Assembly: GCF_019428685.1 (NCBI RefSeq)
Contig: NZ_CP080095.1
Location: 186,001 to 250,000 of the forward strand
Source: Paraburkholderia edwinii
GTDB lineage: Bacteria; Pseudomonadota; Gammaproteobacteria; Burkholderiales; Burkholderiaceae
Direction: 5' to 3'
Length of the DNA stretch: 64,000 nucleotides
In this document: positions 47,878 through 64,000 of the stretch, piece after piece
Position numbering within the stretch: the first letter of the stretch is position 1
Layout of the letters: the number at the start of each line of letters is the position of its first letter
Translations under genes and position numbers: made by a program
Notes under the pieces: model-generated
The model's database searches: none
What the model saw: only the letters and a program-made list of their open reading frames with translations
What the model was told of the DNA's origin: nothing

Positions 47878-48318
47878 CTAACCAGCGCCCCGATGCGCCT
47901 TCCACGCTTCCACATAACGCAGCGCCTGCTCACACTGACTGAGCGTGAAAGCATGGAGACTCGACGGCACCGGATCGAATCCAAGCTCCTGTGCAACCCA
48001 TCGAACGGCCTTAGCGCGCGCTTCGAAAACGCTGACCTTATCGCGCCGCGACTTCGCTTCCGCTAGCGGTTCAAGCATATCGTGCAGGCGGCTTTTTGCT
48101 TCTCGTAACGGCGCATCGGCGAGGCGGCCGAGCGGCACATTATGCTTGCTGCGCGGCCGCACGCCGATCCAGGCTGCGCACGACGTGCAAATCCATACTG
48201 CACCGTGGTCGTCGCGGTACGGGTAGTCCGCGTCGCCGAATTGCGCGAGCTGCGCACGCGCGTCGCAATAGTCGCAATGCGGTTGGGGGAGAGCTTTGAC
48301 GGGGCGGCCGACTCGCAC
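47878..48318 (-). CDS. DUF3268-like zinc-finger protein
   Basis: A 146-residue protein from GTG 48318 with AAGGAAAG upstream. PHCDYCDARAQL and VWICTSCAAWIGV provide two Cys pairs, and YPYRDDHGAVW and PLGRLADAPLREAKSRLHDMLEPL follow the DUF3268 pattern. Likely binds zinc and perhaps nucleic acid; the function is not known. The C-terminal third (KVSVFEARAKAVRWVAQELGF) looks like a separate small helical domain found in phage-linked proteins. Confidence 0.7.
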   Translation of the reverse strand: MRVGRPVKALPQPHCDYCDARAQLAQFGDADYPYRDDHGAVWICTSCAAWIGVRPRSKHNVPLGRLADAPLREAKSRLHDMLEPLAEAKSRRDKVSVFEARAKAVRWVAQELGFDPVPSSLHAFTLSQCEQALRYVEAWKAHRGAG

Positions 48319-48424
48319 TGGGTCTTTCCTTCTTCGGGAGAAGAGATGTCACAGGATAGCAAGTTCGGGCGGCGGGCCGCAGCGTGCGGCGCACGAGGTG
48401 ACGCCGAGGCTCTGAGGCGCGTGC

Positions 48425-49284: not shown

Positions 49285-50841
49285 TTAGACTAAAACTGCT
49301 CGACGAGCACGCGTCGTTTGCCCCAGATTACCGATCGGCTGGCCCGATGCAGGAACCGCTCGTTCACGCCCCCATGCGCGAATGTTCTCGATTTGCTCTG
49401 GACTCGTCTTCGACAGTGGAACCACATTCTGAAAGCTTCGGCGAAACAGGTCATCAGAGACTGCAGCATCACCGCTCAGAAACGCCTCCTTGACGACTTC
49501 GCGAACCGCTGACTCCAAATCTGAGCCTGCAAATCCTTCGGAAAGCTCAACGAGTTCTCCCATCAGGCTTTCGTTGAGCTCGTACTTCAAACCGCGCTGG
49601 ACATAGATGCTAATGATGTCTCTGCGCTCCTCAGTGCTCGGCAAGTCGACAAAGAACAGCTCGTCGAAGCGTCCTCGCCGGAGCAACTCGGGGGGCAGGC
49701 GAGATACGTCGTTGGCTGTGGCGACGACAAAAACCCGCGAACGAGCTTCCTGAAGCCAGTACAGGAACTGCCCCACCAGTCGCGTAGAGGTGCCCCCGTC
49801 GCCTGCTCCCGAGGTTGCCCCCGCGAGACCTTTTTCAATCTCATCAATCCAGAGCACACACGGCGCCACGTGGTCCGCCGTGCTCAATGCATCTTTCAGG
49901 CGCGATTCACTTTGACCAAGATATTGACCGTGTATCGTCGACAGGTCGAGGCGATAAAGCGGCATCTTCCAGTTCAGCGCAATCGCCTTGGCGGAAAGCG
50001 ATTTCCCGCAACCCGGGACCCCGACGAGGAGAACGCCGCGAGGAGGCCGGATTCCGCGCTCTCGCAAATCAGCCGTGAGCAGAGGACGCTCCTTTTCCAG
50101 CCACGCCTTCAGACCGCCCAACCCTCCAACGTTGAGCTCTGAACCCCGGACCTGAACTCGCTCGATTCCTGAGATGTCCGCAAATATCCGGTCCTTAGCC
50201 TGCGTAAGTTCTTCGAGGTCGCTTTTGAGGATACTGCCATTCGCGAGCAGGGTCGCAATGATGTTGTCCGCCTCGATACGCGATACGCCTGTCAGAATTG
50301 CCGCTGCTTCGCGTTCGTCAGCATCGTCCCACTCAATTCGATAGTCTGAGCGGTACGCACCAATCTGCTCCCGGATGATTTCAAGCATCTCATCCTCGGA
50401 AGGCGCAGACAGTGTCAGCGACATCCCTAGCCGCTGCAACTGCCCCCAAACGGGCTTCGTCGTAATGATGACGATGACCCCGCCGTTATCTGCCGCCAAT
50501 GTCACCGCGTCGAGCAGTTGGCGCGAGAACGGCGACTCATCCTCCGCGTCGGGTGCCTCGGTCAGAACAAATGTCAGATTCTGACGTTGCGCAATCTGCT
50601 GATTCGCATGGTCCAGCGCTCCGACCGTTGACCTGTCCTCGTTAGTAACGCGGTTCGACACAAGATCCCGAGTCCCTTGCGAGATGGAATGCACATACAC
50701 CGGCGCATTGTTCAACCCTGACGCAATTTCCTTAAAGATGTCGAGCACTCGAGCGCGTTCAGAGCTGCGAACCGAGATGAACGGTACTCGCGCCTTCAGA
50801 TAGCGGGTCAATGTTCGCTGGAACTCTTTTGTATCACTCAT
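49285..50841 (-). CDS. Ycf46-like AAA+ ATPase
   Basis: A 518-residue protein. The N-terminal half (1-230) is a degenerate nucleotide-binding-like region ([41 protein letters not shown]). The C-terminal AAA+ module has Walker A GVPGCGKS (274-281), [18 protein letters not shown], Walker B VLWIDEIE (329-336), [24 protein letters not shown] with the arginine finger, and [12 protein letters not shown]. This is the Ycf46 pattern of chloroplasts, cyanobacteria and scattered bacteria, whose role is unclear. It is the last gene of a five-gene operon, 4 bp after the preceding gene, and probably remodels a partner encoded there. Confidence 0.85.
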
Positions 50842-50845
50842 TTAT

Positions 50846-51415
50846 TCAAACCAGAATGTTTCGACGACGCACCGGTCCCGACGGGCGGCCAGCGTCTGGC
50901 CTATGCGCCGCGCTGGAAGTGCCTACATCTGTAGGCTGAGGTATAGCCGCTGCGTGTGCCTTGAAATTGAGAAGGCTGCATTGTCTAATCGTGCTGGCGA
51001 GCTGACCGCTACGGTCATGCCTTGCACTATCTTCAAGCGAATTCTGCGCGGTTTGCGCGTACTGTGTTAGCTGCTGCTCCAGGCTACCGCGTAATTCCTC
51101 CGCGAGGACTGGCAAACTTGCCAACTGATATAGCTGAGCAAGCTTCTTTCGTGCATCGAGCATCGCACGCGCCAACGCATTGAAGTCTGCGCCCAAACGT
51201 ATCCCACGAGACAGCTCGTCTGCAATGCGCTTTATTCTTGTGTCGAGCGCAGCGCTGACGCGCCTGGCAAACAGTGGCGCGACCCCGCCAGTCCAACTGA
51301 GCGTCCCTGAGCCCATCACGCTCAACGCGGCATCATCGTCAATGCCGGCTTCAAAATAGTCCAGGCATTCCGACCAGTCGGCATAAGTCGTTGGCACTTT
51401 CAGCGGTGCACTCAT
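50846..51415 (-). CDS. Unknown protein of the AAA operon (189 aa)
   Basis: Not recognised. Mostly helical, with a central GADFNALARAMLDARKKLAQLYQLASLPVLAEELRGSLEQQLTQYAQTAQNSLED region of coiled-coil character (about 95-145) and a Pro/Arg-rich tail. No signal peptide or membrane helix. ATG 51415 is preferred over a GTG one codon upstream. It starts 4 bp after the preceding gene and ends 4 bp before the ATPase gene, so it is cotranscribed and may be the ATPase partner. Confidence 0.7.
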   Translation of the reverse strand: MSAPLKVPTTYADWSECLDYFEAGIDDDAALSVMGSGTLSWTGGVAPLFARRVSAALDTRIKRIADELSRGIRLGADFNALARAMLDARKKLAQLYQLASLPVLAEELRGSLEQQLTQYAQTAQNSLEDSARHDRSGQLASTIRQCSLLNFKAHAAAIPQPTDVGTSSAAHRPDAGRPSGPVRRRNILV

Positions 51416-51419
51416 CACC

Positions 51420-51605
51420 TTACTTCACACGGCGTACGAACGGTGCAGCCGGTAACAGATCCCACTCAGGAAGTGCGCCGGCCAACACTTCATTTAGGGT
51501 GCGCTCCGCAGTTTGCTCCGCGCTGTCAGCGGGTCGGATAGTCTCTTTTTGGTTGCTCGAGACAGTAGAAGAATCGGCGTTGTCGGTGAGAAATTGACGG
51601 CTCAT
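51420..51605 (-). CDS. Unknown 61-aa protein of the AAA operon
   Basis: A short acidic protein with a disordered Ser/Thr/Gln-rich N-terminus (MSRQFLTDNADSSTVSSNQ) and a conserved-looking end NEVLAGALPEWDLLPAAPFVRRVK. GAGGAG lies 8-9 bases before the ATG and overlaps the stop of the upstream gene. The strong ribosome site and the tight spacing (12 bp before, 4 bp after) argue that it is real. It may be an adaptor peptide or a substrate of the ATPase. Confidence 0.65.
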   Translation of the reverse strand: MSRQFLTDNADSSTVSSNQKETIRPADSAEQTAERTLNEVLAGALPEWDLLPAAPFVRRVK

Positions 51606-51617
51606 TTGAGGTGCTCC

Positions 51618-53336
51618 TCAGGCTGCGGACATAACGCGGCGCACACCATCGTGCGATGAAAGGATATGCTGGTCTGGCGAAATCGAGTCGATGAAGGTGG
51701 TCACTTCTACCGCGATCGCATCACGCCGTGCCAGGTCCCGACGCCACTCGACGAGTTCCGCAAGCGTAGCCTTGAGCGCTTGACTACACTGTTCCTTCTT
51801 TTTCGCCGCTTCGACTTCCACGCGTTTGCGCGCGTCCGCGATTTTCTTCTTCTCAATGAAGAACCAGCCGACAAACGCGGCTCCGATGATCGCGAGTACC
51901 CATCCGCTGGTAATACCTGCCAATATCAGCCCAACGCCCAGGATCAAGGCCACCCACTGCTTCGCACCCAGCTTCAGTTTTTCCAGAATCGCGTCACGCT
52001 CATGGTCCAGATACGCCCCCAGGCTCTCGATCAATTCTGTCTCGTTACTACCATCGCGAGTCCTGGCCGCCCATCCCTCAATCTCCAGGTCCACCTCGTC
52101 CGGTACATGCGAGCGGAAGGTAGCCGTCAAGTCGTCGTGAGCGTCTTTAATCCACGTGCGCGATAGTGCCGTCGCATAACGCTGCGTCGCCCGCGTCGCC
52201 TTGCTCAGTTGCGGGTTCATAGCAGCGTTCGTCAGAAGCTGCGTGAAGCTGACGCGCTCGTCGAGCATTTTGCTTTCGAGTGACTGGCGGCGCTGTGCGG
52301 CAGAGCGGTCGCCCTGCTCCTCGATAATCAACTGGTTGAGGCGGTCCTCGCGCCGCAACGGCAACTCCTCGTCGTCGAAATTTGTGACCAGCGAGTCGAG
52401 CAAATCGTCCACAGCGGCTTCGATGCTCCGCGCTGGCGTCAACGCGCCGTCGAAGATTCCGGTGAAGTGGTCTCGCACGACTTCATGCAGTGCGGCCTCG
52501 TTCAGCGAATCGTTGAGTTGCTGCCAGGTCGGGCTGAACCTGGACAGATGGTTGTAGTCCTTGGCTCGGTCAGTCGTGGGCAGCTTGCTAAGCAGACCGT
52601 CGCTCCACTGTTCGCGCTGAGTTTCAATGAACCCCACCTCTGCCGCGAGTTCCTCCACCCAAGCCTCGACGCGCTTCGTACACTGAAGGCGGACCTCCGT
52701 CCCCAGCGCGCCACTGGCCAGGGCATCGACCAGCACCACCGTCTGACGGTCGAGGCTCTTCGGGTCTTGCATCCCAAAGTAGCGGTCGAGCCAAGTGCGA
52801 CACGCACTCCCTCGCCCGGCCCGCCGGCTAATAAGAGCAAAGAAGAGCGAGGTCTTTTCATCGTCACGGCGAATTGCCTCTGCGAGTGCGCGCTTGGCCA
52901 GTTCCTGGTGGTCGTTCAGCCAAGCGGCCAACGCGACGAGTGCCGGCGCGAGCCAGTAGCGCGGCGCCGTCAGCATCAACTCTTCCGTGGTCGACTTGAT
53001 TGTCTCCGAGCGCACCACGTTGATGTCGGCCGCTTGCAGAATCCCCGTCGTGTGGCGGCGCACTTCGGCGTAGTAGCCGTAGGTCGACTCCAGTTCCTGC
53101 CGCACCTTGATTTGCCGTGTTTCGGCAAGGGCCAACTCTTTCGCGCGCAAATCCGCGGCAACAAACTGCATGAAAGCCTGTTCGAGGCGTGCCAGTTCGG
53201 AACGCGTATCGGCAAGCTCGGTCCCAACGCCGTCAACCTGTTGTGAGACAGCCTCGATGTCGCGATTCAGGCTTTTCAGCGCGTTATTGATGAAGGTCAG
53301 GTCTGCCGCCTGGATAATCCGCTCACTGGTGCTCAT
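51618..53336 (-). CDS. Coiled-coil protein with C-terminal membrane hairpin (572 aa)
   Basis: Not recognised. Residues 10-80 are heptad-like (SLNRDIEAVSQQVDGVGTELADTRSELARLEQAFMQFV). A long helical middle follows (SYM-type repeats absent). At about 457-493, WVALILGVGLILAGITSGWVLAIIGAAFVGWFFI forms two closely spaced membrane helices, followed by a charged coiled-coil tail (EKKKIADARKRVEVEAAKKKEQ). This resembles membrane-anchored scaffold or dynamin-like tails, but no GTPase or Walker motif is seen. AGGAT precedes the ATG. Likely anchors the operon products at the inner membrane. Confidence 0.75.
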   Translation of the reverse strand: MSTSERIIQAADLTFINNALKSLNRDIEAVSQQVDGVGTELADTRSELARLEQAFMQFVAADLRAKELALAETRQIKVRQELESTYGYYAEVRRHTTGILQAADINVVRSETIKSTTEELMLTAPRYWLAPALVALAAWLNDHQELAKRALAEAIRRDDEKTSLFFALISRRAGRGSACRTWLDRYFGMQDPKSLDRQTVVLVDALASGALGTEVRLQCTKRVEAWVEELAAEVGFIETQREQWSDGLLSKLPTTDRAKDYNHLSRFSPTWQQLNDSLNEAALHEVVRDHFTGIFDGALTPARSIEAAVDDLLDSLVTNFDDEELPLRREDRLNQLIIEEQGDRSAAQRRQSLESKMLDERVSFTQLLTNAAMNPQLSKATRATQRYATALSRTWIKDAHDDLTATFRSHVPDEVDLEIEGWAARTRDGSNETELIESLGAYLDHERDAILEKLKLGAKQWVALILGVGLILAGITSGWVLAIIGAAFVGWFFIEKKKIADARKRVEVEAAKKKEQCSQALKATLAELVEWRRDLARRDAIAVEVTTFIDSISPDQHILSSHDGVRRVMSAA

Positions 53337-53338
53337 TT

Positions 53339-53818
53339 CTATCCTTTAACAATGGAAGTGTCGCCGCTCGCTGTGACGGCAATAACCTTGTCTGTGTAGA
53401 CCTCAACGAACGCATATTGCGCGTGAACGGCTAATGCGCGTCCCCGCGCCAATAAAGGCGGTAACGACTCGAAATGCTTGTAGTGCTGGATGATGTTGCC
53501 CATTCGGTCCAGCGTGTGGACCTCGTAAGGCGGACCCAGATAGCATTTCGCCACGATTCCCACCGGATACTGGTCGATGGAGATGTCGGGAAACTCGTCG
53601 TTGATTGCAGCAACCAGCGCGTCGATAGCTTGCTGATTGTGTAAATGGCTGCCTGCGTCAAGCTTTAGCATGGCATCCATATAGCTCGCCGAGCGCTTCA
53701 TTCGCAGCCTTGCGATCAGCTGCTCGGGAGATAGCGGCGTCGCAACCTTCCCGCTTGATGACAATGCCGTGGCTAACGCGGGAGCGGTCGTTCCCGGCGT
53801 AAGAAGCTTCCGTACCAT
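53339..53818 (-). CDS. Unknown 159-aa protein, first gene of the AAA operon
   Basis: Not recognised. The first 45 residues are low-complexity (KLLTPGTTAPALATALSSSGK); the rest is compact alpha/beta (LKLDAGSHLHNQQAIDALVAAINDEFPDISIDQYPVGIVAKCYLGPPYEVHTLD, AVHAQYAFVEVYTDKVIAV). No signal peptide. ATG 53818 is used, with weak AGAG upstream; a TTG at 53935 extends it without conserved sequence. Its stop is 2 bp before the next gene start, so it leads the operon, with a candidate promoter about 190 bp upstream. Confidence 0.65.
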   Translation of the reverse strand: MVRKLLTPGTTAPALATALSSSGKVATPLSPEQLIARLRMKRSASYMDAMLKLDAGSHLHNQQAIDALVAAINDEFPDISIDQYPVGIVAKCYLGPPYEVHTLDRMGNIIQHYKHFESLPPLLARGRALAVHAQYAFVEVYTDKVIAVTASGDTSIVKG

Positions 53819-54261
53819 AGAAAACTCTGTGGTCTTATGACTGCCGTTCTTTTGATTGTGGCTTCGCGCGCTCCAGCTACTGACATTCCCCCGCCGTAAG
53901 GCGCACGCAAAAACCTTCCCCGCTAACCGGACCAATGAGAGACCGGCCGATACATCGAGTAAGTCGAGTCAACTTTATTGAGAGGCATCGATTAAACGCC
54001 TTATCAGGTGGACATTCTACTTCTGTTATTTGCCTGATCCAAAGCGTTTTTAAATGCAACGCACGTTATTGAAGGTCATTAGTCCGTCTTCCCGGACTAG
54101 TCAGTTACATCCACTACCTTTTCAGTTCGGCTCAGAGAAATTTTATGCGCAACACATCGCCGAACTGTACTTTGTCGATGGGTGCGTTTCTCGCTCCCTT
54201 GTCGTTGTTGTCATTGCGTTTTTCTTCAACCCGGCGATAAGGCATCTGCTTCAGCTCCGCT
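53819..54261. other. Regulatory gap upstream of the AAA operon
   Basis: 443 bp between the sirtuin stop and the operon. AT-rich around 53960-54060 and 54110-54240. It holds the candidate promoter at 54014-54042; no gene was supported. Confidence 0.5.
54014..54042 (-). promoter_or_regulatory. Candidate sigma-70 promoter of the AAA operon
   Basis: On the minus strand, TTGGAT (54042-54037), 17-bp spacer, TAGAAT (54019-54014). It matches 4/6 and 5/6 consensus positions and would start transcription near 54007, leaving a leader of about 190 nt. Confidence 0.5.
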
Positions 54262-55023
54262 CTACCAAGTCGCATCAACGAGCGCTGGCATGATTACGCC
54301 GGCGGCACCAACGAGATTGATCTGTGCGATGCCGTCGAGGGATGTCGGGTTTGGGTTGACTTGCACGACCATCGCCCGGCGCCTCGCGGCTAGAAGCGGC
54401 AACCCAGCAGCAGGCTGCACGAGCGACGACGTGCCGACGCTGAACAACACATCACATGCCTCGCAAGCCTCAACCGCCGCATCCCATTGAGACTTCGGCA
54501 ACATCTCGCCAAACCAGACCACACCGGGACGTACATACCCGCCGCATCGCTCGCATTGTGGCGGCGCGAGGCGCCGGCCGCCTTCGGGCTCGTTAGGGAT
54601 TCCGGCCGATAGTGTGTGCGGGTGTCCGCACGCGAAGCAAAACGGCCGGTTCAGTCGTCCGTGAAGATGCAGCACCTTGTCGCTACCCGCGCGTTCGTGC
54701 AGGTCGTCGACGTTCTGCGTAACCACATCGACGCGCGGCACTTTAGAAGCGATAGCGGCGATCGCCCGATGCGCCGCGTTCGGCTCGGCCTTCATCACCT
54801 GCATACGTCGCCATTCATACCAGCCCCAGACAAGCTCGCGATCACGCCTGAAGGCGTCGGCATTCGCCAGTTGCTCCGCGCTATAGCGCTCCCACAAGCC
54901 CGTCATCGCATCGCGAAACGTAGCAATTCCGCTCTCGGCAGAGACGCCGGCGCCAGTCAGGAAGACAACATGCTTTGCACCGCGCAGCGCGGTGATCAGT
55001 TCAGAGGGAATGGCGATGGACAT
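54262..55023 (-). CDS. cobB: NAD-dependent protein deacylase, CobB/Sir2 class III type
   Basis: A 253-residue sirtuin. GAGVSAESGIATFRD (24-38), TQNVD (102-106), catalytic His121 in LHGR, zinc ribbon Cys129, Cys132, Cys157, Cys160, and GVVWFGE are intact. Tyr69 and Arg72 in WYEWRR match the Y-x-x-R pair of class III sirtuins that favour succinyl-lysine. ATG 55023 is chosen; the frame to 55116 adds no conserved motif. It removes acyl groups from lysines using NAD+. It lies in the accessory region but is a single-domain enzyme unlike defence sirtuins. Confidence 0.88.
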   Translation of the reverse strand: MSIAIPSELITALRGAKHVVFLTGAGVSAESGIATFRDAMTGLWERYSAEQLANADAFRRDRELVWGWYEWRRMQVMKAEPNAAHRAIAAIASKVPRVDVVTQNVDDLHERAGSDKVLHLHGRLNRPFCFACGHPHTLSAGIPNEPEGGRRLAPPQCERCGGYVRPGVVWFGEMLPKSQWDAAVEACEACDVLFSVGTSSLVQPAAGLPLLAARRRAMVVQVNPNPTSLDGIAQINLVGAAGVIMPALVDATW

Positions 55024-55167
55024 GACAGTGCTCTCAGACTCCATGCAAGCAGCCGCGCGCAGCGGACAGATCACAGCAATTGACGATGCGTCGACTTTAG
55101 CGCGCGTCCAGGACACTTTCTGTCCCGATCGAAACGGAGAATCTCGTCAACGCCAAAGGAGAACCCG

Positions 55168-57264
55168 ATGTATTTCCGTCACCGCCGTCCCCGCTATGCC
55201 GGCAGCTCGCTGGACGTTGCACCGACTGTGCGCTTGTGGGTGTTGCGCCTGCTTGTCCCACTTGGCGTGCACCGCGATCTGATTCGGCCTGATGGATTCT
55301 CCAATGATACGTTGGCCGAAGCGCTCGGACTCGGGAAGTGGATCGACCCGAAAGACGAAGAATTCGACGCAAAGGCAGTCCGGACCCGGTTGCGAGCACT
55401 CCATCAACAGGCGGAGGCGGAGTGCCGCGGAGAACGAATCTCCGAGTGCCTCGACAACAATATCGCGCGCCTTGCCGAGCTCGTCGGTCTTTCCGAAGTG
55501 GAATGCCGGATCCTCGAATTCGTTGTGATGCTGAACAACGAGAGGTTGCTCACCGATACGGCCGAGTGGCTTGGACAGTTGTCGTCGGCACGCGTCTTCC
55601 ATGTGCTGTCCCTGTTGCTCGATATCGCCGAGCCCGACGTTCGTGCGGCGTTGAGCGGACGCGGAGCGCTCGCGAAGTCGGGTCTCGTGTCGCTCGACAG
55701 TGGATCGCACCTGATGCTGAGCGGCAAGCTCGATCTGCTCTCGGATAAGTTCGCCGATCATGTCATATCGTCCGACGCCGACCCGATCAGCCTGTTGCGC
55801 GATACGGTTGCACCCGTTGCTCGGGCAGAGCTGAAGCTATCTGATTACGCGCACATCGATTCGTCGCTTGCCGTGCTGCTGCCTTATTTGCGAAAAGCGC
55901 ACATGTCAGCGCGAAAGGGCGTGAATGTGCTGTTGTACGGCGCACCTGGCACGGGCAAGAGCCAGCTCGCGAAAGCGCTGGCCGACAAGCTCGGCTGCGA
56001 TCTGTTCGAGGTCGCAGCCGAAGACGAAAATGGCGATCCGATTGATGGCGAACACCGGCTGCGCGCGTTTCGAGCGGCCCAGAGCTTCTTCAGGCAACAG
56101 CAGGCGATGATCCTGTTCGACGAAGTCGAAGACGTGTTCAACGACACGAGCAGCGTTTTCGGAAGCAAGAGCACGGGGCAAACGCATAAGGCGTGGATCA
56201 ACCGCATACTCGAAACCAACAGCGTGCCGACGCTTTGGGTGTCCAACTCCATCGACTGCCTGGACGCGGCTTTTATCCGGCGGTTCGACATGGTCGTGAA
56301 GTTGCCGGTACCGCCGAAGCGGCAGCGTGTGGCGATTATTGAAAATGCGTGCTCGGGTTTGATCGACACCCGGACCGTGGACCGGCTCGCCGATTCGGAA
56401 GTGCTCGCGCCGGCGGTTGTCGCGCGCGCCGCGTCGGTTGTTCTGGCGATCCGTCAGGATCTTGCTGCGCCGGATGCGGCTGCAGCGCTTGAACTGCTGA
56501 TCAGCAATACGCTCGAGGCACAGGGTCATAAGCCGATTCGAAGCGCCAGCACCGATCGGTTGCCTGAAACCTATGACCCTGCGTTTGTTCATGTGGATGC
56601 CGATCTCGTCGCTGTCACTACTGCGTTGATCCGCAATCGCGCCGGACGCTTGTGCCTGTATGGGCCGCCAGGGACAGGCAAGACTGCGTATGGTCATTGG
56701 CTCGCGGAACAGCTTGGCGTACCGCTTCATGTGAAGCATGCATCGGATCTGATGTCGAAGTGGGTCGGCGATAACGAGAAGAATATTGCGGCCGCGTTTC
56801 GCGAAGCCGAGCAGGACGGCGCGATGTTGCTGATTGATGAAGTCGACAGTTTTCTTCAGGACCGGCGAGGCGCGCGCGCGAGTTGGGAAGTCAGTCTTGT
56901 CAATGAAATGCTGACGCAGATGGAGCGGTTTCCCGGTGTGTTCGTGGCTTCTACGAATGTGATGGAGCAACTGGATCAGGCGGCGTTGAGGCGCTTTGAC
57001 GCCAAGATCCGGTTTGGGTATTTGAAGGTGGAACAGGCGTGGATGCTGTTTTGTCGGCATTGTGACGCGCTTGGGTTTATGAAGCCGTCGGTGGATCTCA
57101 AGGCTCGGGTTGGGAGACTCGATCGGGTTACGCCGGGGGACTTTGCGACGGTTGTGAGATGGCATCGGTTTAGTGCGATTGCAAACACTGGTGAATTCCT
57201 TGCGGCGATCGAAGCGGAATGTGGGTTGAAGGAAGGTGGGCAGCGGGTGGTGGGGTTTGTGTGA
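55168..57264 (+). CDS. Tandem AAA ATPase
   Basis: A 698-residue protein with two AAA modules after an N-terminal helical region (1-245). Module 1: Walker A YGAPGTGKS (257-265), Walker B MILFDEVED (314-322), arginines 371-372. Module 2: Walker A YGPPGTGKT (498-506), Walker B MLLIDEVDS (553-561), LRRFDAKIRF (606-615). The second is closer to the classical AAA pattern. GGAG precedes the ATG. It is divergent from the sirtuin gene and 173 bp upstream of a WYL gene. Probably a hexameric remodelling or defence ATPase; no specific family is recognised. Confidence 0.85.
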   Translation: MYFRHRRPRYAGSSLDVAPTVRLWVLRLLVPLGVHRDLIRPDGFSNDTLAEALGLGKWIDPKDEEFDAKAVRTRLRALHQQAEAECRGERISECLDNNIARLAELVGLSEVECRILEFVVMLNNERLLTDTAEWLGQLSSARVFHVLSLLLDIAEPDVRAALSGRGALAKSGLVSLDSGSHLMLSGKLDLLSDKFADHVISSDADPISLLRDTVAPVARAELKLSDYAHIDSSLAVLLPYLRKAHMSARKGVNVLLYGAPGTGKSQLAKALADKLGCDLFEVAAEDENGDPIDGEHRLRAFRAAQSFFRQQQAMILFDEVEDVFNDTSSVFGSKSTGQTHKAWINRILETNSVPTLWVSNSIDCLDAAFIRRFDMVVKLPVPPKRQRVAIIENACSGLIDTRTVDRLADSEVLAPAVVARAASVVLAIRQDLAAPDAAAALELLISNTLEAQGHKPIRSASTDRLPETYDPAFVHVDADLVAVTTALIRNRAGRLCLYGPPGTGKTAYGHWLAEQLGVPLHVKHASDLMSKWVGDNEKNIAAAFREAEQDGAMLLIDEVDSFLQDRRGARASWEVSLVNEMLTQMERFPGVFVASTNVMEQLDQAALRRFDAKIRFGYLKVEQAWMLFCRHCDALGFMKPSVDLKARVGRLDRVTPGDFATVVRWHRFSAIANTGEFLAAIEAECGLKEGGQRVVGFV

Positions 57265-57277
57265 AAACAAAACGCGA

Positions 57278-57291
57278 ATCGCATTTGCGAT
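57278..57291. promoter_or_regulatory. Inverted repeat upstream of the WYL gene
   Basis: ATCGCA-TT-TGCGAT lies in an AT-rich 173-bp gap after the tandem AAA gene. WYL regulators often bind their own upstream region, so it is a candidate operator, but a chance match is possible. Confidence 0.35.
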
Positions 57292-57437
57292 GCCAAACGC
57301 ATATAACAAAACGAAAGAAATTAAAGCGCCGAAATAAATAACATGAACCATTTAGAAGATGAATGGAAATGCCGATAACCGTTGTGCGCCGATATGACTG
57401 CAGTTGAAGTTGAGATTGGAAGAAATTTGGGAACCCC

Positions 57438-58493
57438 ATGCTGTCAACACTAGATGAAGCCCTCCTGCGCGTCCTCCCGACTGAGCGCGATAGCGAACCG
57501 TGGCTGTCAACGTCAGACGCTCTCAAGAGATTGCAGGGACGAGGACACGACGTCTACCGGCGTCTCGTGCTGCGGCATCTGACCGCGCTCCAGAAGAGCA
57601 AATTTGTCATCTCGCGCGGAGAGGGTCGTGGCTTTGTCTGGCAACGCAAGCCGTGGCTTCATGGCGTGCGCGAAGGTAGTGGTCTTATGAGCGCTTCGGA
57701 AGCCGTTGCATTTCATGTCCTTCAACGGTTCGCCGGGAACAAGCTACCGGAGGCGGTGATGCAGGACATCGCTCCGTTCTTCAAAGCAGCCGAAATTCGG
57801 CTTTCACAAGAGAAGGCCGATAGCCGTGTCTACCGCGCCTGGTCCGAAAAGATCGATTCGGTCGATGGGACATTCAAGCTGAATCGGCCTCCAGTGAATG
57901 TCGAGACGTTCAAGGTCGTTGCAAGCGCAACGTTCTTTGAGCGTGAAGTGATCGTGCAATATCGCGCTGCATATCGCGGAGAACAGACGGAGGAGCCTGT
58001 GCCGAAGACACTTAGGCCTCTCGGGCTCGTGGAATCCGCCGCTGTCATGTACTTGATTGGGGAAGATCCGCGGCATGCGCCTGATCCCGCGAAAGGCAAG
58101 CATGAAGCATTGCGTAGCCTCTATCGACTGGATCGTATCGTCAAGGCCACGGACTCAGGCAAGTCGTTTCAATATCCGAAGGACTTTGACCTACGCGAGT
58201 ATGTGCAGACGCGGCGTGAGTTCGACTTCATGACGGAGGCGCCCGTTAAGCTCGAGTTGGCTTTTATCGATGGCTCAGGGAATCATCTTAGGGATGCGCC
58301 TATTTCTCTTGATCAGAAAATCAGCTCACTGAAAGATGGACGGATGAAGGTATCGGGAACGGTTGTACCCAGTCTAAAGCTTAGGTGGTGGCTTCGTTCA
58401 CTGGGGACTGCGGTAGAGGTGCTCGCGCCCGTGAAGCTGAGGGAGGAGTTTGCGGAGACGTATTGGCAGTTGGCGAAGTTGTATAGGAAGTGA
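57438..58493 (+). CDS. WYL-domain transcriptional regulator
   Basis: A 351-residue regulator. The N-terminal winged HTH (WLSTSDALKRLQGRGHDVYRRLVLRHLTALQKSKFV) is followed by a linker and the WYL domain (about 150-260), where PKTLRPLGLVESAAVMYLIGEDPRH carries the motif with Trp replaced by Met (MYL), and SLYRLDRI follows. A C-terminal WCX-like segment completes it. WYL regulators commonly control defence islands. It is flanked by the tandem AAA gene and the DUF6361/PLD/helicase cassette, so it may govern both. Confidence 0.88.
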   Translation: MLSTLDEALLRVLPTERDSEPWLSTSDALKRLQGRGHDVYRRLVLRHLTALQKSKFVISRGEGRGFVWQRKPWLHGVREGSGLMSASEAVAFHVLQRFAGNKLPEAVMQDIAPFFKAAEIRLSQEKADSRVYRAWSEKIDSVDGTFKLNRPPVNVETFKVVASATFFEREVIVQYRAAYRGEQTEEPVPKTLRPLGLVESAAVMYLIGEDPRHAPDPAKGKHEALRSLYRLDRIVKATDSGKSFQYPKDFDLREYVQTRREFDFMTEAPVKLELAFIDGSGNHLRDAPISLDQKISSLKDGRMKVSGTVVPSLKLRWWLRSLGTAVEVLAPVKLREEFAETYWQLAKLYRK

Positions 58494-58652
58494 TGAGGGG
58501 ACAAGCCACTTCCACTCCAAGGCTTTTTGTTCCCGCAATTTTCAAGACGTGCGGGCACCCGTCCCATGCATCATCCGTCGAGCGTCGAGTTCCACACCCG
58601 ACTCAGCAGTCTACGATCGATCCGACAAAGTCGAAACGTAAAGAAAAGGCTT

Positions 58653-59882
58653 ATGGCATCTAATCTCTCTTGGCTCGACCACGACGCCGCAGCGGCGCAG
58701 CGTAGCCTCCATATACTTTCATTCTTCGATGAGCGCGAGGCTCGCGACGAACTGGGTATCGGCGGCATCCGTGACTCAATCGCAGATCAGTTGTTCCCCA
58801 GAACATCAACGATTCAGACGCGTCTGCGGTATGTGTTTTTTGTGCCTTGGCTCTTCAATCAGCTGGAATCCAAGTCGACCGCTTCGTCGGCGTTTCCGGG
58901 TGCCGCGCGGAACGCGGAAATACGCCTATTGAAAGAACTTATAGAAAATACCTCAGCGGACGAGCCTGGCGTAATCGGCCGCGACGCAGGCAAGGCACTA
59001 AAGCGGCTACCAAGCTCCGTTTATTGGGCTGCCTTGGGTAGTTGGGACATGCGCAGAACGCGTGTGTCGCTGCAACAGTACTTCTCTTTGGCAGACAGGC
59101 GTCACACGATGCAGCGCACGCGGCGCAAGCGTGACGACAACGAAGATCACGACGGCGATCCAGCTAGCAGCGCATGGGATACACAGCTCGTCAAACTGTG
59201 CCCCGAAGATTTCCCACTCGGGGTGAATCTGAAGCTCACACGTGAAGAGGCAGAGTTCCTTCTCGACCGCTGGTGCAAACAGCATCCGGATTCGTTACTC
59301 ACCTGGCTCGCTCGCGATCTCTCGGAAGGCCGTGCGATGACCGAGGTTGATTACATCTGGAATCATCCGCGCCGGCATGACTTTCCACGCGAGATACAGC
59401 CACTGATTGACGATGCACGCCGTTTCAACGTACTGATGCACGGCGCCGCATTGCTGTACAACCTGCTCCTTGCCGAGCTCGAACCCCGCCGTGTTGATAG
59501 CGTCGATCTCGCTGAACAATATCGCGAACAACTCAACGCATGGGCAGCGAACAAATTGCCCGCCTGTGACGCGTGGGATCTAGATGCGTTCTGGAAACGG
59601 GTGATTGATAAAGGCCACTCGATCAGTGGAGCTACTCAGGAATTTGTGCAGACATGGCTAGATCGAGCGCTACGCGAGCATACTCAGATTGATGAGTCGC
59701 AAGCTTGTCGAAAGCTCATCGAGGCCCGCGAGATCAAGCTCAAGGATAAGCGGTCACGCTTTACGAATATGGCCGCACGGTCACAGTGGGGTGGTCGAGC
59801 CGGACTTGTACCACTGGGTTATCGATGGCCCGTGGCTAGCAACTTTTTGCGTGAATGGCACGAAGGATGGAGCGCGGCATGA
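58653..59882 (+). CDS. DUF6361-like protein
   Basis: A 409-residue protein from the ATG at 58653. NLSWLDHDAAAAQRSLHILSFFDEREARDELGIGGIRDSIADQLFPRTSTIQTRLRYVFFVPWLFNQLE is the DUF6361 opening, found in defence-linked operons; function is unknown. No signal peptide or membrane segment. AAGG lies close before the ATG. It overlaps the next gene by 4 bases (ATGA), the first of two such couplings in the cassette. An earlier in-frame start at 58527 lacks conservation. Confidence 0.8.
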   Translation: MASNLSWLDHDAAAAQRSLHILSFFDEREARDELGIGGIRDSIADQLFPRTSTIQTRLRYVFFVPWLFNQLESKSTASSAFPGAARNAEIRLLKELIENTSADEPGVIGRDAGKALKRLPSSVYWAALGSWDMRRTRVSLQQYFSLADRRHTMQRTRRKRDDNEDHDGDPASSAWDTQLVKLCPEDFPLGVNLKLTREEAEFLLDRWCKQHPDSLLTWLARDLSEGRAMTEVDYIWNHPRRHDFPREIQPLIDDARRFNVLMHGAALLYNLLLAELEPRRVDSVDLAEQYREQLNAWAANKLPACDAWDLDAFWKRVIDKGHSISGATQEFVQTWLDRALREHTQIDESQACRKLIEAREIKLKDKRSRFTNMAARSQWGGRAGLVPLGYRWPVASNFLREWHEGWSAA

Positions 59883-61693
59883 TCAGTCCCGAACAGCGTA
59901 GCATGTTGACCGACGCGCTGACCCCACCCGACGGCTATCGTTTTGACTGTGGCGTAGCGACCACCTACTCCCTCGACCTCATCACATTACTGACGCTACC
60001 CCTTCACCTCGCACGTCGCGATACCGAAGACGTTTCGCCTGATCGGCCCGACCCGTTACCGGTCCTGGAGGCACTTCGGCGTATGGGAGATCGACTCACC
60101 GTCTTTTGTCAGCGCGGGCGACTCCAGATTCCGCGCAAGGCCAACGCATTACTCGGCCTCCTCGAAAGTATGGTTCACGAAGCGCAAGCCCCACATGGCG
60201 GCGTTTTTCACCCGAAGGTCTGGCTGCTGCGCTTCGAGCCTGGCGACGCCAACCATGGGGAGGCAGCCATGTTGCGTATGCTTGTACTCACGCGCAACCT
60301 CACCGACGACCGCTCATGGGACCTTTCACTTTGGCTTGAAGGTAAAGTAGGCAAAAAAAAGCTCAACGAAAACAAGTCGCTCGTACGATTCATCGAACGT
60401 GTCTGCGAAATGAGCACGAAGGCAATCAGTGCAACACGAAGCGAGCAGATTCAGCTACTTTCTACCGATGTGCATCGTACAGTATGGGAACCGCCGGGAC
60501 AGTACGAATGGACCCGATTTCATGCGCTCGGCATCGAACAAAAAGCAGCGAAGTGGCTACCCGAAGCGGACGGCGGCCTGCCTTGGGACGAACTCGGTGT
60601 CGTGTCTCCGTTTGTCACACAAGACACTTTGAGCGAATTGGCAGCAAGCGCGAAAGAACCGCTCTTTCTCGTGTCGCGAAGCGAAGAACTCGACAAGCTC
60701 TCTTCGCTAGAAGACTTTTCAAATGTCCACGTCCTAAGCGACCAAGCGGTCGTGGGCGATCTCGAAGACGACGACTCTCAACGTCAGCGTGGCCTGCATG
60801 CGAAGGTCTACATTGGTAGACGTACGTGGTACACGCATCTGTTCGTGGGATCAGCGAATGCGACCGCCGCGGCCCTCAAAGGCAGAAACGTCGAGTTCAT
60901 GGTCGAGTTGATCGGCCGCACGAGCAAGGTCGGCACACCCGCAGACTGGGTAGGCAATGAGGGCTTGGGTCCATTGCTTGTTCCCTATTCCCGATCCGAT
61001 CTCGAAGATCCAGAAAGACTTGCGGACGAACGCGAACTCGAGAAGCTTCGTGACGCGCTGGCTCGCGCGGACCTATCGCTTCACTGCAGCAAATGTGAAG
61101 AAGGTTGGGCAGTCGATCTGCACGGGCTCAACGTTGTCGACTACTGCGGCGTAAAAGCTCATGCGTGGCTTGTGACGCAAGACGAGGAGCGCGCGGTGTC
61201 AATCGGCGGGGAGCCTTCTCATGTCGTCGCGCATCCCGTCGGGCGACTAGGCATATTCGCGCCTCATCACGTTACGTCCTTCACCGGCTTTGGCCTTGCC
61301 TTCGGCGCTGCAACCCTGCGATTTGCGATGCAACTTCCGTTGCACGGAGGGCCCGAGGACCGAGACCTCGAAATTCTACGTGCGGCTATTCGTAACCGCG
61401 AAGGACTGATCCGCTATTTGATGTTGCTGCTTGGCGATTGGTCGGGAGATGAAGGTAATGAGTATGGCGCAGGTGCGCTCGGTGAAAAGCGTGCTCTTGC
61501 ACGTAATGAAACGCCGTTATTCGAGATGCTGGCTCGCGCATTTGCGCGCGAGCCCGATCGACTCACCCGGGTTCACGAACTAGTGAAGCGGCTTCGCGAT
61601 GAAACAACCGAAGATGACCCAATATTGACCGACGATTTCATTGGGATTTGGTCTGTATTCGAACACGCTCTATCCGAAGAGGAAGGCAAATGA
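59879..61693 (+). CDS. Phospholipase D-like protein
   Basis: A 604-residue protein with two PLD half-sites. The first is HPK (111-113) in FHPKVWLLRF with TRNLTDDRSWDLS as the following segment (138-150). The second is HAK (307-309) in GLHAKVYIG with VGSANATAAAL (323-333) and Glu339/Glu343. Each half gives the HxK and polar residue of a PLD active site, so it is likely a nuclease or phosphodiesterase rather than a lipase. GGAG lies 6 bases before the ATG at 59879. It is coupled to the DUF6361-like gene and to the helicase gene by ATGA overlaps. Confidence 0.8.
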   Translation: MISPEQRSMLTDALTPPDGYRFDCGVATTYSLDLITLLTLPLHLARRDTEDVSPDRPDPLPVLEALRRMGDRLTVFCQRGRLQIPRKANALLGLLESMVHEAQAPHGGVFHPKVWLLRFEPGDANHGEAAMLRMLVLTRNLTDDRSWDLSLWLEGKVGKKKLNENKSLVRFIERVCEMSTKAISATRSEQIQLLSTDVHRTVWEPPGQYEWTRFHALGIEQKAAKWLPEADGGLPWDELGVVSPFVTQDTLSELAASAKEPLFLVSRSEELDKLSSLEDFSNVHVLSDQAVVGDLEDDDSQRQRGLHAKVYIGRRTWYTHLFVGSANATAAALKGRNVEFMVELIGRTSKVGTPADWVGNEGLGPLLVPYSRSDLEDPERLADERELEKLRDALARADLSLHCSKCEEGWAVDLHGLNVVDYCGVKAHAWLVTQDEERAVSIGGEPSHVVAHPVGRLGIFAPHHVTSFTGFGLAFGAATLRFAMQLPLHGGPEDRDLEILRAAIRNREGLIRYLMLLLGDWSGDEGNEYGAGALGEKRALARNETPLFEMLARAFAREPDRLTRVHELVKRLRDETTEDDPILTDDFIGIWSVFEHALSEEEGK

Positions 61694-64000
61694 CGCGTAA
61701 TTTCCAGGCAAGCACGCTTCTCAGGGGGCTGAAGGACTTCCAGCGCGCGACCGTCGAATATGTATTCGCACGCATGTTCGATGAGAACGATCCTGCCATG
61801 CGCTTCCTGGTTGCCGACGAGGTGGGTCTCGGCAAAACGATGATCGCCAAGGGCGTGATTGCAAAGACGATCGACCATCTGGAGCGTACCGGCGAACGTC
61901 TTGACATCGTTTACGTGTGCTCTAACGCCGAGATTGCGGCTCAAAACATCAAGCGCCTCATGTTGCCGGGCCAATCGATGATCCCCCACGCCACGCGACT
62001 GACGCTTTTGCCGCTCATCACTGATAAGTTGGACAGCCGTCGGGTGAACCTTATCAGCTTCACGCCGGGGACAACGTTCGGCAAGAAGAAAGGCGGCGGC
62101 CGTCGCACGGGCCGCAAAGAGGAGCGGCGTCTCATCTATCAAATGCTCCGTGAACTAGATGGTGTTCACGATCGGGGATTCCGACATGCACTGAGGGGCA
62201 GCGCTGGTGACTACTGGGACACCGAGGCACAAATTGTCATCAAATATGATAAGGCTATCGAGCAGGAGTACCGCGAGAGGGTCGCTGAAAATTCAACGCT
62301 ACTCGCGGAACTGCGTGAAATAGCAGTGGTGTACAGCGATCGCCGCATGAAGATTAGCGAAATTAATCAGGCGCGTTGTATGAAGCTAATAGGTGACCTC
62401 CGTGCACTACTCGCCCGCGTGTGCTTAGTCGCTCTTAAGCCAGCGCTTGTCATTCTCGACGAATTTCAGCGCTTTAACGAACTCTTTGACGATCCGGAAG
62501 CGGGGGAAAATCCAGCCGCCGAACTAGCACACCAGCTCTTCAATTACGAAGGTCGGGCACGTGTACTGCTGCTCTCCGCGACGCCCTATAAGATGTTTGC
62601 GCGAGATGACGAAGACGAAGACCACTACGCCGACTTTCTCCACACATTGCGGTTTCTGTTTCCGGGAGATCGAGAAACGATCGCGGCTTTAAAGGCAAAT
62701 ATATCCGCGCTACGCACGGGAATGCTCGGTACGAAGAATATGGCTGGACTCGCCAAGCTTGACCCGGTAAAAAACAGAATCGAATCGGCGCTGAAACGCG
62801 TAATGTGTAGAACCGAGCGTGTAGAAGCTACGCAGCACGCCGACTCCATGGTCGTAGAGCGGCCTCTCACACCACAGTTGAGTCAACGTGACTTAAAGGA
62901 CTTCAGAGCGCTCGAGGAACTCGCAGATGAGCTCAAAGAGCGCGAGACGATCGAATACTGGAAATCGAGCCCTTATCTGCTCAATTTCATGGGCCAATAC
63001 GCGTTCAAGGACGCGGTTCGTGAACAAACTGGCAGCAAGACCTCGGGCATCCATGCAGCGTTTTCCGAGCGGAACCTCGCATTACTGGAAAAGCGTGACA
63101 TCAACGGCTACAAAGCAATCGATCCGGGTAATGCACGTCTGCGTGCACTGATTGATCGAATCGATACCGAAGGGCTGTGGAAACTGCTATGGATGCCGCC
63201 GTCGATGAAATACTGGGGCGCGGGCGGTGAATACAAGCAGATCGGGTCGGTCAGCAAGCATCTCGTTTTTTCGGCCTGGAATGTCGTGCCCGACGCACTC
63301 GCTGCTTTGCTGTCCTTTGAGGCGGAGCGCCGCATAGTAAGTGACATTGATCGCAAGCTCAAGTACACCGAGATGCCACGCCGTTTCGGGCAACAATTGC
63401 GCTTCTCAAATTCCCCTGATGGCAGACCGGCAGGCATGTCAGCGCTTTTACTCGCATTTCCGTCACAAGCTCTCGCGCGAATCGTTGACCCCCTCAACCT
63501 GCATGATGACGGAATCACCGTCCCGACTTACGCAGCGGCGCGTGAGCACGCAATGAACTTAATCGGGCCGGCTCTCAGACCACTCGTGAACTCCCGCGTT
63601 ACCGATGGGCCCGTGGACAGGCGCTGGTATTGGGTGGCACTCGCACGGATAGAAGCAGTCCAACACCCCGAGGGCCGCCGATGGTGCTCGGAACGCTGGG
63701 CGGAGGCACGCCTTGCCCGTCACGACGATGATGCGGACTCGTCGACCGGATTCGACGCGCACGTAAGATTTTGGCTCGACGCGTGGGACAACAAAATTGA
63801 AGAGCTCGGACGCGTGCCTTCCGATCTTATAGAAGTCCTCGCGGACATCGCGCTCGCTGCTCCGGCGACGTGTGCGCTACGGACACTCTCCAGGATTTGG
63901 CCACACGGGGAAACGCCCAGCGAGATGTTAGACGCGGCAGCGCGCATTGCGGAGGGCCTGCGTAGCCAATTCAACTCTCCGCGCGCGGTTGCCATGCTAA
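61690..64000 (+). CDS. SNF2/DEAD-like helicase (open at right edge)
   Basis: At least 770 residues of an SF2 ATPase. LLRGLKDFQRATVEYVFARMF and DEVGLGKT (Walker A, 43-50), DEFQ (Walker B, Asp257) and LLLSATPYKMF (motif III, SATP 296-299) show the first RecA-like domain; SVSKHLVFSAWNVVPDALAALLSFEAERRI starts the second. The DEVGLGKT motif fits the helicase group seen in defence systems such as DISARM-like and BREX-like loci. It overlaps the PLD gene stop by 4 bases (ATGA). The reading frame remains open to the window end, so the C-terminus is not seen. Confidence 0.85.
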   Translation, partial: MTRNFQASTLLRGLKDFQRATVEYVFARMFDENDPAMRFLVADEVGLGKTMIAKGVIAKTIDHLERTGERLDIVYVCSNAEIAAQNIKRLMLPGQSMIPHATRLTLLPLITDKLDSRRVNLISFTPGTTFGKKKGGGRRTGRKEERRLIYQMLRELDGVHDRGFRHALRGSAGDYWDTEAQIVIKYDKAIEQEYRERVAENSTLLAELREIAVVYSDRRMKISEINQARCMKLIGDLRALLARVCLVALKPALVILDEFQRFNELFDDPEAGENPAAELAHQLFNYEGRARVLLLSATPYKMFARDDEDEDHYADFLHTLRFLFPGDRETIAALKANISALRTGMLGTKNMAGLAKLDPVKNRIESALKRVMCRTERVEATQHADSMVVERPLTPQLSQRDLKDFRALEELADELKERETIEYWKSSPYLLNFMGQYAFKDAVREQTGSKTSGIHAAFSERNLALLEKRDINGYKAIDPGNARLRALIDRIDTEGLWKLLWMPPSMKYWGAGGEYKQIGSVSKHLVFSAWNVVPDALAALLSFEAERRIVSDIDRKLKYTEMPRRFGQQLRFSNSPDGRPAGMSALLLAFPSQALARIVDPLNLHDDGITVPTYAAAREHAMNLIGPALRPLVNSRVTDGPVDRRWYWVALARIEAVQHPEGRRWCSERWAEARLARHDDDADSSTGFDAHVRFWLDAWDNKIEELGRVPSDLIEVLADIALAAPATCALRTLSRIWPHGETPSEMLDAAARIAEGLRSQFNSPRAVAML

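Follow-up and report, generated by a model that had tools for sequence, protein, structure and literature searches.

Azaca is said to have been first described by Millman et al. in 2022, where it was reportedly found as an anti-phage system. DISARM pairs a SNF2-type helicase with a phospholipase D-like (PLD) protein and features DrmB (DUF1998), DrmC and a DNA methyltransferase together with the helicase. PMC10952713 lists Azaca among the systems that carry a PLD-like domain and cites Millman et al. 2022 for it, and PMC12278908 names ZacC as the helicase of Azaca and describes Hachiman as a system in which a sensor helicase keeps a nuclease effector under control. Here we analyse a stretch of 64,000 nucleotides from Paraburkholderia edwinii (the window; contig 1, bases 186001-250000, in a genome of two contigs and 8.3 Mb), at whose right edge lie three genes that, judged by sequence, almost certainly constitute a complete ZacA-ZacB-ZacC set, that is, the named anti-phage system Azaca. 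Our overall reading, to which we give a probability of about 90%, is of a complete Azaca in a defence island that was probably acquired horizontally, with a tandem AAA ATPase gene and a WYL regulator gene as a neighbouring module.

Identity, conservation and proposed action of the trio

Starting at 55168, five forward-strand genes extend past the end of the window and encode a tandem AAA ATPase, a WYL regulator, a DUF6361 protein, a PLD-like protein and a helicase. A preliminary description of this DNA had named all five and each is present by profile or fold (PF00004 twice, PF13280 with PF25583, PF19888, the ZacB profile and the helicase). The two ATGA overlaps it reported, 59879-59882 (zacA/zacB) and 61690-61693 (zacB/zacC), are real and join the last three genes:

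58653..59882, + strand: zacA, DUF6361 protein of 409 residues; PADLOC ZacA E 1.1e-124, PF19888 E 9.7e-54; all-helical AlphaFold2 model with a predicted local distance difference test score (pLDDT) of 90.4
59855..61693, + strand: zacB, PLD-like protein with two HxK half-sites (H119/K121/N148 and H315/K317/N335); PADLOC ZacB E 3.7e-170; Tdp1/PLD3-like fold
61690..64000 and on to G000:C1:250899, + strand: zacC, SNF2/RapA-type helicase-like ATPase, first 770 of 1069 residues within the window; PADLOC ZacC E 0

PADLOC profiles were scanned against ten window proteins at E 0.01 and against the full helicase at 0.001, with 18 proteins scanned in all. The matches cover positions 1-394 of 396 in the ZacA profile, 1-584 of 586 in ZacB and 5-1016 of 1019 in ZacC, the last spanning residues 6-1060 of the helicase. 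Runner-up matches of ZacC are to short stretches of other helicases (at most 66.6 bits), as shared motifs would give; the ZacA and ZacB proteins have no further PADLOC match at E 0.01. The zacB product has no Pfam match at E 0.01 either, and is identified as ZacB by profile and as a PLD protein by fold. Azaca requires ZacA (DUF6361), ZacB (PLD-like) and ZacC (helicase); all three are present at full length in the order A-B-C on one strand, and the PLD half-sites and helicase motifs are intact. The preliminary description had called the set undescribed, matching none it could name, while conceding that membership of a known named system would count against this. Such membership was looked for with the PADLOC profiles and found, each protein matching the corresponding Azaca model almost end to end. 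The trio is an already named system and no new family is needed.

The gene boundaries call for some revision. The helicase does continue past the window, as had been proposed; zacC ends 899 bases outside it at G000:C1:250899 (L002:1691-4900), giving the full length of 1069 residues. A start at 58527 had been given for the DUF6361 gene. The most likely start is instead ATG 58653, because the ZacA profile begins only at residue 43 of the longer open reading frame (ORF) and because the matching ATG in another locus, L004, is the first start in its frame. For zacB, ATG 59879, inside the ATGA overlap, is more likely than 59855. Of the catalytic residues proposed for mutation, helicase Lys49 stands, while the numbering His111/His307 does not; these are H119 and H315 counted from ATG 59855.

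An alignment search of the genome collection with ZacB gave 195 relatives, the best 80 of which were used as Azaca loci. Conservation of the trio across genomes had been suggested as a check, and zacA, zacB and zacC are collinear on one strand in 76 of these 80 loci, which rules out chance. Of the four exceptions, two lack A (L040 and L053, which start at most about 120 bases from the end of the stretch) and one lacks C at a contig end (L019); in L071 a recognised A is absent despite about 3 kb of room. The ZacC motif cores DEVGxGKT, DEFQRF, SAT, GQEGLDFH and QREGRxHR occur in all 68 proteins alignable at full length, with variation at flanking positions. Azaca is patchy, being found in 5 of 144 genus genomes, this one included; in identity and coordinates the other four places agree with the Paraburkholderia loci L003-L006. 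With the ZacB profile, 59 of 398 phylum genomes match at E 1e-3 and only five, again including this one, reach at least 390 bits. We rejected 59 as a count of Azaca, the remaining places scoring at most 55 bits and looking like general PLD proteins, and 5 of 14 control genomes matching as well.

The ZacB model has a Tdp1/PLD3-like core with both half-sites within one chain, and ZacB has no sequence match in the Protein Data Bank. H119, K121, N148, H315, K317, N335 and E347 are invariant in all 80 loci. This set holds the best 80 among 195 relatives, retrieved with search patterns of which one covers the first HxK site, whose invariance is thus partly built in; the second HxK site lies outside both search patterns. 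This and several further points weigh against our reading. The fifth position of the second half-site is Glu or Asp in 67 of the 80 loci, that is, the Tdp1-like signature is not uniform. Among the 76 collinear loci ZacC falls in two ORFs in three (L028, L047 and L073), and that of L018 is partly masked (5000 N). Plasmids carry 43 records of ZacB relatives (34 covering at least 80% of the query), all below 60% identity. The ZacB model is of moderate quality (pLDDT 79.6, built from 20 sequences) and its Foldseek TM-scores against Tdp1 are low, 0.32 and 0.42. Tdp1 leads PLD3 and another phospholipase D by only about 2 Z units, so the fold cannot tell the substrate. The ZacA structure model gave no informative fold match.

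The mechanism of Azaca is listed as unknown in a table row of the 2026 review PMC12926258, which still includes Hachiman in that same row. A working scheme can be proposed. ZacC would spend ATP on translocation along DNA or on its remodelling and would detect DNA that is foreign or abnormal (ends or replication intermediates, perhaps). ZacB, as a two-half-site phosphodiesterase of the PLD superfamily, would then cut or trim DNA ends via a covalent histidine intermediate, and ZacA may be an all-helical adaptor that links ZacB and ZacC or reads the target. The overlapping genes are probably translationally coupled and their products may work as one complex. Action as a nuclease plus translocase seems on balance the better bet; a preference for DNA ends is a possibility that we put forward tentatively. 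A ZacB of Tdp1/PLD3 type would be expected to act on DNA ends and points to the residues to mutate, which gives a testable idea of how Azaca works.

The tandem AAA and WYL neighbours

Two genes precede the trio:

55168..57264, + strand: tandem AAA ATPase of 698 residues; PF00004 twice; AAA-WYL pairing; probably not part of Azaca
57438..58493, + strand: WYL/WCX transcription regulator of 351 residues; PF13280 and PF25583; pairs with tandem AAA genes in other loci

The preliminary description implied that these genes and the trio are one unit. All five, or the AAA gene and the trio, would then form one regulated system, with the AAA protein as an accessory part of Azaca and the WYL protein as the operon switch. 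Strand and order in the window agree with this, WYL proteins regulate other defence loci, and AAA relatives adjoin Azaca in three loci. In Paraburkholderia nodosa (L005:3665-4428) a broken tandem-AAA remnant, 50-52% identical over the last ~210 residues in two frames, lies ~320 bp before zacA; in L061 a 33% identical relative lies ~70 bp before zacA on the same strand; and in L132 a 40% identical relative is divergent beside Azaca, with a WYL gene. The comparison of loci speaks against it. Around ZacB, none of the 80 Azaca loci has a WYL gene within 2 kb; extending the distance to 4.5 kb brings in one. More than 2 kb precedes ZacB in 65 of the 80 (15 have less) and more than 4.5 kb follows it in 58; the 2-kb test would detect the window's own arrangement, and downstream 2 kb does not clear ZacC. 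AAA relatives occur in just 6 of the 80 by single-sequence search or 8 by iterated profile, these matches ranging from weak to strong (that in L004 is a short 305-residue AAA protein); they adjoin zacA only in L005 and L061, and L005 has no WYL gene between. WYL relatives number 0 by single-sequence search and 9 of 80 by the broader iterated profile. Within the family, the closest relatives of the WYL protein (identity up to 71%) include those of L101, L103, L104 and L107, which by eye adjoin genes resembling the SbcCD/YhaNO repair genes, and the WYL regulator is therefore portable. The single unit is thus mostly unsupported, and we consider it unlikely; an undescribed five-gene system was rejected as the leading reading on the locus comparison.

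It is most likely that the AAA and WYL genes are a neighbouring module and not Azaca components. Whether they form a separate defence or stress module lying beside Azaca by chance, in which the WYL protein controls the AAA gene, we rate at roughly even odds. Taken this way, the pair would tend to settle alongside defence genes. The evidence comes from 19 AAA loci, namely the four best after the window's own and all 15 places outside its own genome from the listing at E 1e-110; the AAA genes of L110 and L139 lie beneath longer overlapping ORFs and are included in the counts. AAA and WYL genes lie within 2 kb of each other in 7 of the 19, in both Azaca loci whose AAA match exceeds 150 bits, and in the window, and they are adjacent on the same strand in L110, L111 and L132. 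Against such a module, 10 of the 19 have no WYL gene in the stretch examined (some stretches being short), nor do L112 and L113, the two fetched loci of ~360-bit AAA paralogues, which were kept apart; the counts come from related lineages and are uncorrected for kinship. Within Azaca loci a WYL gene accompanies an AAA gene in 5 of 6 cases vs 4 of 74 without one (Fisher p 3e-5, weakened by relatedness, stretch ends and a 102-residue WYL fragment in L004). WYL genes occur in 9 of 19 AAA loci vs 9 of 80 Azaca loci (p 0.001, weakened likewise). Six of the 19 AAA loci contain a DUF2779 gene, as does a single Azaca locus out of 80 (L024, which has an AAA relative too); in L108:8188-12891 and L109:8835-13527 the order is AAA, DUF2779, WYL on one strand.

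A bolder combination, in which AAA and WYL (sometimes with DUF2779) are a separate undescribed defence cassette often beside known systems and the Tdp1-like core of ZacB means that Azaca attacks protein-linked or special DNA ends and is not a general nuclease, seems to us doubtful. In IetAS an IetA-family ATPase is partnered by the protease IetS. IetAS was considered for the tandem AAA protein and rejected, with an NCBIfam IteA score of 110 bits against a cut-off of 510 and no protease profile among the neighbours scanned. The AAA-WYL pair is a small, cheap candidate for assay.

The surrounding island

The proposal of a defence island with a nuclease-helicase cassette is borne out, with Azaca, Zorya and Wadjet side by side. 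First to the right of zacC is an orphan gene (L002:4976-6004, + strand) whose 342-residue product matches nothing in PADLOC, NCBIfam or Pfam and lacks relatives in all 80 Azaca loci. Zorya type I (zorD-zorC-zorB-zorA, on the opposite strand) and Wadjet type II (jetA-jetB, jetC-jetD) follow. ZorD (1295 residues, L002:6079-9966, - strand) is matched by profiles labelled SWI2/SNF2 helicase and Mrr-like nuclease, and its C-terminal part looks nuclease-like by eye. After jetC-jetD comes a protein matched by PDC-S02 and, weakly, by type IV restriction profiles; further right are genes for type I restriction and for an Mrr-like enzyme of type IV, then gyrB, dnaN and dnaA, as judged by eye from their starts. 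Two more features mark the left side:

47890..48421, no strand: left copy of a direct repeat, 532 bp, 85% identical; right copy at L116:7971-8502 (G000:C1:272970-273501)
54262..55116, - strand: SIR2-family protein of 284 residues; PF02146 E 8.8e-53

The 532-bp repeat copies bound the island and both match a single place in the genome G559, the closest relative by recD (88%) among 39 genus genomes. Both flanks match there, and 7.9 kb without a BLASTN match to the island replaces ~38 kb. The block was either gained here or lost in G559; its patchiness makes gain the more likely. These observations also bear on whether the trio acts as a complex for DNA repair or housekeeping instead of as a defence system. 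ZacB does resemble the repair enzyme Tdp1, and nearby genes read by eye as recC, recB and recD. That reading must contend with the presence of Azaca in so few genus genomes, its location alongside Zorya and Wadjet in an island that the closest relative by recD lacks, and the reported anti-phage origin of the named system, and we regard it as very improbable.

The SIR2 gene may be a resident host gene, since G559 and a second genome, G561, carry counterparts near this site. SIR2 genes are absent from all 80 Azaca loci and present in 4 of the 19 AAA loci and in 3 of the 9 WYL-relative loci, which disfavours a mere resident. We note a 68% DNA match to the SIR2 gene between zorA and jetA (L002:15126-15859), with no ORF of 150 residues listed, which is likely a relic. 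To the left, on the - strand at 49285-53935, lies a candidate undescribed cassette of four genes (an AAA ATPase of 518 residues, then products of 190, 572 and 198 residues). The 572-residue protein shows by eye a coiled coil and C-terminal hydrophobic segments and has a weak LeoBC match (E 1.6e-6); it is found in 2 of 200 family genomes, its own included, and all four genes are collinear in the other (L154). Other Azaca loci have neighbours of their own. In Paraburkholderia xenovorans, L004:15341-19762 (- strand) encodes by eye MotB-like and MotA-like proteins, a 474-residue protein and the 305-residue AAA protein, perhaps Zorya-like. The locus with the closest ZacB (75%) has an 1828-residue ORF directly 3′ of zacC (L003:15045-20531, + strand), whose start looks GHKL ATPase-like by eye.

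Comparison with described systems

DISARM (DrmA-DrmD) shares with this locus the pairing of a helicase with a PLD protein, and the C-terminal helicase motifs of ZacC give weak DrmD matches (46 bits). Unlike DISARM, the trio has no methyltransferase profile beside it, and ZacA and ZacB have no Drm match at E 0.01. DISARM was rejected on these grounds, no methyltransferase being found among the 18 proteins scanned; a type I methylase in L117 lies ~38 kb from the trio with its own HsdR and HsdS. Mokosh (MkoA, MkoB) likewise combines a helicase with a PLD-like domain, for which PMC10952713 groups it with Azaca. It too was rejected, with no MkoA, MkoB or MkoC match among the ten window proteins (E 0.01) or for the full helicase (0.001, 24 families listed). 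Hachiman (HamAB) uses other nuclease and helicase families and no Ham profile matches the trio, but its sensor-effector scheme is a possible working model for Azaca. Tdp1 and PLD3/PLD4 resemble ZacB in core fold and in having both half-sites in one chain; Tdp1 differs in its ~15% identity, and ZacB has ~220 extra C-terminal residues and bacterial partners. Naming the trio as Azaca removes a false lead. Apart from the adjoining AAA and WYL genes no difference from Azaca was found in this copy, which agrees with PADLOC models PDLC03828, PDLC03829 and PDLC03830 in its three proteins, their order, their near-full-length profiles and the catalytic motifs they keep.
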